In this document: positions 41,313 to 42,046 of the stretch, in pieces | How the letters are laid out: the number at the start of each line of letters is the position of its first letter | How positions within the stretch are numbered: position 1 is the stretch's first letter | Assembly (NCBI GenBank): GCA_022695795.1 | Contig: MU404231.1 | Span: 1 to 43,200, forward strand | From: Biscogniauxia marginata | Taxonomy: Eukaryota > Ascomycota > Sordariomycetes > Xylariales > Xylariaceae | Direction: 5' to 3' | DNA: 43,200 nucleotides | Program-made: the position numbers and the translations under genes | Notes under the pieces: model-generated | Told to the model about the DNA's origin: nothing | What the model saw: the letters and a program-made list of their open reading frames with translations, nothing else | Databases searched by the model: none

Positions 41313-41317
41313 AAAAA
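41313..41317 (-). terminator. candidate RNA polymerase III terminator (T5)
   Basis: Five consecutive T on the minus strand, about 42 bases after the 3' end of the tRNA-Lys gene. This is the first T run of that length downstream. Confidence 0.5.
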
Positions 41318-41358
41318 TTGGTTGCAATCCCAGTTTGGCTGGGAAGCATCAGGAATTG

Positions 41359-41493
41359 AGCCCGATGCGGGGGTCGAACCTTTTGATTAATGGGTTAGGA
41401 TAATTGCTCTTATTAAATGCTTGTTTAGTATAACAACTTACCCGCAACCTTGAGATTAAGAGTCTCACGCTCTACCGATTGAGCTAACCGGGC
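41359..41493 (-). tRNA. tRNA-Lys(CTT) with a 62-nt GT-AG insert in the T-stem
   Basis: The minus strand folds into a full cloverleaf if 62 bases are removed: a 7-bp acceptor stem (GCCCGGT with ATCGGGC, one G-U pair), D-arm GCTC/GAGC, anticodon stem TGAGA/TCTCA with loop CTCTTAA (anticodon CTT, lysine), T-stem GCGGG/CCCGC with loop TTCGACC, and unpaired base T. The insert (41441-41380) falls inside the T-stem, not at the canonical site next to the anticodon. It starts GTAAGTTG, has TCCTAACCC about 16 bases before its end and ends AAAAG, so it looks like a fungal spliceosomal intron. Removing it restores the T-stem exactly. The internal A box (TAGCTCAATCGG) and B box (GGTTCGACCCC) are both intact but farther apart. 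If the insert is not removed the gene is a pseudogene. Confidence 0.85.
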
Positions 41494-42046
41494 AGGATTA
41501 ACGATCTTGCGATCGATGAGATCTTTTGGTGTTAAGCCATTTTTGTTATGGAGTGGACACATAGGGCCCACTTATATCCGTTGGTTAAAAGAAGCTACCG
41601 ATATACAGGTTAAAGTATATAACGACAAGAAAGGCATATTAAACTAAGAATATAAATATTAATAACCGCGAATAGCGATATTACTAATAATTATAAATAT
41701 AAATAAAAAATAATAATTAAAACCTTAATAATTGGCGTTACTTTTTATTTATATAAAAACTAAAAACTATATAAAAAAGTTTATTTTTTAAGTTATTTTA
41801 AAATAATTATTTTAATTTTTAAAATATATAAAGCATTACTTTTTAATATTATAATTCTTTTATTTTTTAAATTAAGCTTATACTCTTTTTAAAGATTTAC
41901 TTATTATTTATAAAATTTATTATTTTATAAAAAATTATACTAATTTATACTTAAGAAATATACTTTTAAAATATTAGTTTTTATATAAAATTACGAAAAT
42001 TAAATTAAATACATTTTAAAAATAAAATTTTATAATTACTTTAAAA

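Follow-up and report, generated by a model that had tools for sequence, protein, structure and literature searches.

Results

The window, that is, the whole 43,200-nucleotide stretch of DNA analyzed here, constitutes an entire contig (C177, 43 kb) of a genome assembled as 45.3 Mb in 229 contigs. In protein searches, the best named matches of its transporter (79–81% identity) and its laccase (80–81% identity) come from Biscogniauxia/Camillea, a neighborhood that we take to be in the order Xylariales, family Graphostromataceae. On the minus strand, 1.7 kb from the end of the contig, lies a split tRNA-Lys(CTT) gene (41493–41359). Exon 1 (41442..41493) is composed of tRNA positions 1–52 and contains the anticodon CTT and the A box (about 41475–41486), and exon 2 (41359..41379) supplies positions 53–73. 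The two are separated by a 62-nt GT-AG insert (41380..41441) between positions 52 and 53, which we read as a U2-type spliceosomal intron. It begins with the 5′ splice site GTAAGT (41436..41441), contains a branch-site-like CTAAC (41394..41398) with 15 nt from the branch A to the intron end, and terminates in a 3′ splice site AG (41380..41381). The last base of the insert doubles as the first G of the B box GGTTCGACCC (41371–41380), so that both the A and B boxes are intact, and the first run of five T, a possible Pol III terminator, is situated 41 nt past the tRNA (41313..41317). The donor, the CTAAC element, the AG end and the intact promoter boxes are all as claimed in the original prediction, which was made from the letters of the window. 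Beyond the tRNA, at about 41600–42000, is a stretch that by eye is very AT-rich and resembles RIP-mutated repeats.

ARAGORN called no tRNA on the window, and Rfam recognized only the 5′ part of the Lys gene, with a wrong 3′ end (32.7 bits). A covariance model built from 18 intact tRNAs of the genome matched both parts across the gap with 54.1 bits. When the insert is omitted, ARAGORN calls a tRNA-Lys(CTT) with all stems paired, and the 73 exon bases are identical to those of both uninterrupted copies found elsewhere in the genome, confirming that removal of the insert restores a complete tRNA. The window pre-tRNA has a folding z score of −1.91; that of the Ile pre-tRNA described below is −1.50, for a folded stretch that is one base off, and neither value is informative. 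No group I or group II intron family of Rfam matched the window at the gathering threshold. Inserts of 48–66 nt, the range seen in this genome, are below the size of a group I or group II catalytic core. The suggestion that the insert has the size of introns in neighboring protein genes was compared with one such gene, the laccase, in which one homology-defined intron is ∼50–55 nt long. Among 4000 shuffles of the insert, a GT..AG reading was obtained in 0.3%, and a GT..AG reading plus donor and branch match in 0.025%.

A DNA search of the genome with the window gene identified four further Lys(CTT) loci, on contigs C4, C7, C69 and C122. The C7 and C122 genes are uninterrupted. The gene on C4 contains a 58-nt insert (GTAAGT...TTAAT...CAG) at a site identical to that in C177, so that the proposed search for other T-arm inserts yielded a second Lys(CTT) gene split at 52/53. 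The C69 locus, whose 66-nt insert (GTCAGT...TAG) lies at the same site, has decayed; 10 of its 73 exon bases are changed, and 7 of these 10 changes are C-to-T or G-to-A, the type expected of repeat-induced point mutation. One 3′ flank is common to the interrupted C4 and the uninterrupted C7 genes, and another to C177 and C69. Because the Lys family mixes presence and absence of the insert, losses, gains or gene conversion must have occurred. A search with the pattern GGTAAGT..AGGTTCRA returned eight matches, two of which are Lys genes of this family; inspection by eye showed no tRNA at the remaining six, which gave no RF00005 match up to an E value of 1. Partly by eye, all five Lys(CTT) loci have a 3′ trailer of 38–54 nt before the first T5 run, starting with CAAYTCCYGWTGC (41313–41358, minus strand, in the window). 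In the C122 and C7 genes, the 3′ acceptor strand can pair with the trailer (GCATCGGG/CCCGATGC), and a second hairpin follows whose sequence differs between the two loci while its shape is kept. The intron of the C4 gene holds, by eye, a T-arm-like GCTTGCGGGTTCAATTC, that is, an extra B-box-like sequence.

The pattern is wider than the Lys family. Besides the decayed C69 copy, the genome contains at least seven interrupted tRNA genes, which belong to five kinds; this strongly supports the original description of a tRNA gene split by a spliceosomal-looking insert. In addition to the window gene and Lys(CTT) on C4, these are Leu(UAA), Ile(AAT), Trp(CCA) and two Leu(CAA) genes. The Leu(UAA) gene on C61, an RF00005 match of 24.8 bits, has a 48-nt insert (GTACGT...TACTAAT...TAG) at 23/24. 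Ile(AAT) on C43, found with two DNA queries built from 10 and 26 tRNAs, has a 57-nt insert (GTATGT...TACTAAC...TAG) at 26/27. Trp(CCA) on C113, located via a Trp D-arm pattern, carries a 56-nt insert (GTAAGC...CTAAC...CAG) at 26/27 together with an 11-nt intron after position 37, and shows an A-C mismatch at 31–39 in its cloverleaf. The two Leu(CAA) genes (within C7:574503–574690 and C40:247070–247257), located via a Leu D-arm pattern, each carry a 50-nt insert (GTATGT...TACTAAT...TAG) at 32/33 and a 36-nt intron at 37/38. The inserts thus sit at 23/24, 26/27, 32/33 and 52/53 (counted by eye from ARAGORN cloverleaves), and none is at 37/38, the position of the tRNA endonuclease. Omission of the insert gives the expected tRNA at seven of the eight loci, the exception being the decayed C69. 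Left unspliced, none of the eight is called correctly by ARAGORN, which finds nothing at three loci and assigns the wrong isotype at the other five; tRNA finders seek introns near 37/38, and such genes are therefore missed or mislabeled.

Judged by eye, the 3′ flank of the Ile gene on C43 (CCCCGGCTTATACTAG...GGCTTAGGTTT) is similar to the 3′ flanks of two tRNA-like repeats, C26:425181 and C189:27565, and is possibly a tRNA-derived repeat beside the gene. A further candidate at C55:265428 (C55:265210–265440, minus strand), in which GGCGCAGTGGTAACGCG, a D-arm-like stretch, precedes a good intron-like GTACGT...CTGCTAAC...TAG, was dropped as it has no T arm. The Lys and Leu(CAA) junctions found no match in a viral contig collection, the Trp junction found in a genome contig collection two bacterial matches that are attributable to chance and lack a tRNA, and a Trp-like junction pattern found nothing in the window.

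In order to compare the inserts with ordinary anticodon-loop introns, every placement of an insert that yields the same spliced product was listed and checked for a GT start and an AG end. Exactly one GT..AG register exists for each of the eight inserts, whereas none exists for any of 26 ordinary introns. The latter were placed as ARAGORN gave them, with several isotypes or borders doubtful (for example, C145 Leu(TAA) and C28 Tyr(ATA)); left out were duplicate sequences, the repeat-like L071 and L074, which is the interrupted Leu(UAA), and also outside this set are the 11-nt Trp and 36-nt Leu(CAA) introns at 37/38 and tRNAs in which ARAGORN placed no intron, among them one His of 95 nt and one gene of 87 nt labeled Ser. 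The inserts are 48–66 nt long, compared with 9–31 nt for the 26 ordinary introns. When each of the eight was shuffled 4000 times, a GT..AG register appeared in 0.08–1.2% of shuffles, and one with both a donor and a branch motif in no more than 0.23%. Fungal 5′ splice sites follow a GTRNGT-like consensus. The donors of all seven genes fit it (GTAAGT twice, GTATGT three times, GTACGT and GTAAGC), and the decayed C69 copy has GTCAGT. A YTRAY branch motif is present in seven of the eight inserts; 9–15 nt follow the branch A in six of these, the sole motif of the C40 Leu(CAA) insert lies 29 nt from the intron 3′ end, and a scan of the decayed C69 insert found none. Genome-wide, 1146 matches to GTAAGT..CTAAC..AG, some of which overlap, compare with 365 to the reversed control.

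A bulge-helix-bulge was found in none of the eight inserts in its strict form and in one in its relaxed form; because just 9 of the 26 ordinary introns pass the relaxed form, this test separates the two classes poorly. In its GT-AG register, the Ile(AAT) insert has 4/4 central and two exon-side bulge-helix-bulge pairs. Within 54 nt downstream, each of the eight loci has at least five consecutive T. Among the inserts, that of Leu(UAA) on C61 holds five consecutive T, which could terminate Pol III transcription prematurely, and avoidance of T runs in the inserts is not significant, 20–89% of shuffles keeping runs to three or fewer.

Exons and introns of the interrupted genes differ in their conservation. 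The C177 and C4 Lys exons each show 0/73 differences from the intact Lys genes, and the exons of Ile on C43 equal those of the intact Ile on C45 in 74 of 74 bases. In the Leu(CAA) pair, 0 of 81 mature bases differ versus 7 of 50 in the GT-AG intron (Fisher p = 0.0009), and the 37/38 intron differs at 6 of 36 bases. When all 28 insert pairs were compared with shuffles, the Leu(CAA) pair proved plainly related, and three more pairs beat 95% of shuffles (C177–C69, C4–Leu(UAA) and C69–Leu(CAA) on C40), barely above chance. Within the Lys family, the similarity of the C177 insert to that of C4 does not exceed the level of shuffles (58.6% of which are as good), C177 and C69 are marginally similar (3.2% as good), and C4 and C69 are not above shuffles (15.5% as good). 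Unchanged exons beside drifting introns suggest selection for the interrupted genes.

The census of tRNA genes bears on whether the fungus could do without them. With the RF00005 profile, 60 matches with E values of up to 10 were obtained in the genome; 63 of 1528 first candidates were scored, and the census is incomplete. Our tally is 59 uninterrupted tRNA genes versus the seven interrupted ones and the decayed C69. The 59 comprise 51 RF00005 matches above 45 bits, Arg on C112, and seven others: Pro on C45, Phe on C54 (with, by eye, an anticodon-loop intron only), and three Gly, Asp on C150 and Thr on C19, these last five known as DNA matches only. Outside the tally are C179, C26:425181, C102 and C189 (which look repeat-like or AT-rich), a decayed Ser-like copy (C3:485507), and two Leu 3′ halves. 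Each of the latter is 42 nt long and corresponds to the 3′ half of the Leu tRNA on C145 (C73:207726–207767 and C2:222797–222838, 100% and 93% identical); they have no recognizable 5′ half and are perhaps retro-element remnants or further split genes. No tRNA-Asn was found in the whole genome by family search, DNA queries or an anticodon-arm pattern, and its gene may be another interrupted one. Human, yeast and similar queries for Phe, Trp, Asn, Val, Leu, Arg and Gly found a single Val gene only.

Intact copies exist for Lys(CTT), on C7 and C122, and for Ile(AAT), on C45. In this incomplete census, no uninterrupted Trp(CCA), Leu(UAA) or Leu(CAA) gene was found with RF00005, DNA queries or D-arm patterns. 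The Trp D-arm pattern has 24 matches, of which one is exact (C113), four are known Met or Arg genes, and 19 are not tRNAs, with no model match above 10.9 bits. The Leu D-arm pattern has four exact matches, namely Leu(CAG) on C7 and C107, Leu(TAG) on C145 and the interrupted Leu(UAA) on C61. Allowing one mismatch adds 11 matches, comprising both Leu(CAA) genes, two known Ser genes and seven that are not tRNAs. With up to two mismatches there are 215 matches versus 210 for the reversed control, and the accounting for Leu(UAA) covers the exact and one-mismatch matches. ARAGORN labels the C145 gene Leu(TAA), with an intron placed inside the anticodon; with a 37/38 split, the gene reads Leu(TAG) and its anticodon stem is fully paired. 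Were the ARAGORN label right, an uninterrupted Leu(UAA) would exist.

U6 is expected to be a Pol III gene. The sole U6 match in the genome (C41:126374–126530) contains a 57-nt GTAAGT...CACTAAC...CAG intron after GAAGAT, and its removal gives GAAGAT|TAGCATGG, the standard U6 core; another Pol III transcript thus seems to be spliced likewise. The intron contains a B-box-like ATTCGAATCC. The title of a 1990 paper by Frendewey reportedly places a B box within the Schizosaccharomyces U6 intron.

Discussion

The insert in the window gene is very probably a U2-type spliceosomal intron in a tRNA gene transcribed by Pol III, and the same would hold for at least six further tRNA genes of the genome. In the mechanism that the sequences suggest, TFIIIC would bind the A and B boxes, both of which are computed to be intact in the window gene, and Pol III would transcribe the interrupted gene as far as the T run observed downstream. 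The spliceosome would then remove the GT-AG intron by way of its CTAAC-type branch site, and the tRNA endonuclease would separately excise the intron seen at 37/38 in Trp and Leu(CAA). The joined exons are computed to fold into the usual cloverleaf.

Ectopic introns in nuclear tRNA genes have a precedent in the red alga Cyanidioschyzon merolae, whose tRNA-Ile(UAU) has introns at 12/13, 37/38 and 53/54 (PMC9602550). As in the present fungus, tRNA genes of C. merolae are described as interrupted in the D and T arms, sometimes along with a 37/38 intron (PMC9602550, PMC4090602). The processing of these introns is characterized as little known (PMC9602550); by the inference of a review, some eukaryotic endonucleases are able to cleave outside the canonical position (PMC4090602). 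By analogy, the fungal inserts might be cut by the tRNA splicing endonuclease and their GT-AG ends be due to chance. The pairs in the Ile(AAT) insert would fit such cleavage, and failure of the bulge-helix-bulge test proves little when ordinary introns themselves pass the relaxed form in only 9 of 26 cases. We nevertheless regard this explanation as very unlikely: endonuclease cleavage is what the review infers for C. merolae, whereas all eight fungal inserts have GT-AG ends and seven the branch motif, against no GT..AG register among the 26 ordinary introns; the strict and relaxed bulge-helix-bulge forms are found in none and one of the eight; and the yeast enzyme is described as cutting strictly at 37/38 (PMC4033280). 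The ordinary 37/38 introns share the genome, and in Trp and Leu(CAA) even the genes, with the ectopic inserts, and the 26 compared differ from them in both length and GT..AG ends.

It is also very unlikely that the interrupted genes are dead or unused and their inserts old insertions that are never removed. The intact Lys(CTT) and Ile(AAT) genes leave room for this, since the window Lys gene is dispensable given the C7 and C122 copies, and the interrupted Lys(CTT) and Ile(AAT) genes could be unused; moreover, C69 is clearly decayed. The original prediction had held that intact Lys(CTT) genes elsewhere, together with an insert that is never removed, would speak against it, and the former do exist, but the C177 exons are perfectly kept. 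Constant exons beside diverged introns with retained splice signals argue against dead genes. For the Lys and Ile exons, which could be maintained by gene conversion, intact donors exist, but none is known for Trp, Leu(UAA) and Leu(CAA), and no uninterrupted gene was found for any of the three.

The proposal that the insert is an introner-like mobile insertion with a target-site duplication fared less well and appears highly improbable. The GGT that flanks the window insert on either side is real, and proliferating introns are known in the related family Hypoxylaceae, though these lack flanking duplications (PMC8469720). Yet the GGT repeat is short, allowing four equivalent registers, and the end repeats amount to 3 nt in C177, 3 in C4, 4 in C69, 3 in Leu(UAA), 1 in Ile, 1 in Trp and 0 in both Leu(CAA) genes (4, 4, 5, 4, 2, 2, 1 and 1 equivalent registers for the eight inserts), and thus there is no constant duplication. 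A genome search for the window insert, the one insert covered, by a heuristic that skips very common words and scores only the best candidates, found no second copy; its matches elsewhere were confined to tRNA exons and, at most, some ten bases of neighboring insert. Similarity between the inserts of C177 and C4, which occupy one site, is at shuffle level. Assembly error or contamination might be considered for a gene 1.7 kb from the end of a contig that is itself the whole 43-kb window, but like arrangements with different inserts occur inside contigs of 916 kb (C4), 774 kb (C7) and 321 kb (C43), and this explanation can practically be dismissed.

The nearest known systems place spliceosomal introns in other non-mRNA genes. 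U6 of S. pombe, a Pol III product, splices an mRNA-type intron (PMC10484740) and resembles the interrupted tRNA genes in being a Pol III gene with a short GT-AG intron; the host, however, is a spliceosomal RNA, for which reverse splicing has been proposed as the origin, whereas tRNAs are outside the spliceosome. The rDNA introns of lichens and other ascomycetes are likewise ectopic spliceosomal introns in a non-mRNA gene with a non-Pol II transcript (PMC8527467). Removal has been reported for these Pol I transcripts, and yeast is able to excise the spliceosomal introns of lichens from rRNA (PMC8527467); for the present Pol III transcripts, removal is predicted from sequence. The main texts of two reviews, on tRNA introns (PMC4090602) and tRNA genes (PMC4033280), contain no word starting with 'spliceosom', and a review of April 2026 still classes tRNA splicing as spliceosome-independent (PMC13149111). 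No report of spliceosomal introns in tRNA genes was encountered among the listed titles and abstract openings of open-licence PMC papers, and any claim to a first report is provisional. The intron type and its presence in U6 and rRNA genes are known; tRNA genes as hosts appear to be new. Work by Bhattacharya from 2000 is reportedly cited for the spliceosomal introns of ascomycete rDNA.

The two splicing systems are taught as separate, with the spliceosome acting on mRNA and an endonuclease and ligase on tRNA. A genome needs Trp and Leu(UUR) tRNAs, and splicing is therefore likely to be a requirement, except if intact copies escaped our searches or are absent from the assembly; such copies may sit in gaps. 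On balance, we favor the view that every copy of Trp(CCA), Leu(UAA) and Leu(CAA) needs the spliceosome, some of them together with the endonuclease in the same molecule, that reading of the codons UGG, UUA and UUG, and through it translation, depends on the spliceosome, and that several Pol III transcripts are routinely spliced by it. If so, routine splicing of several genes would proceed without a need for Pol II transcription, and the fungus would offer a natural system for studying the entry of introns into structured RNAs. The passage of essential tRNAs through the spliceosome would break the separation of mRNA and tRNA splicing, and translation in this fungus probably depends on a spliceosome that cuts tRNAs as well as mRNAs.
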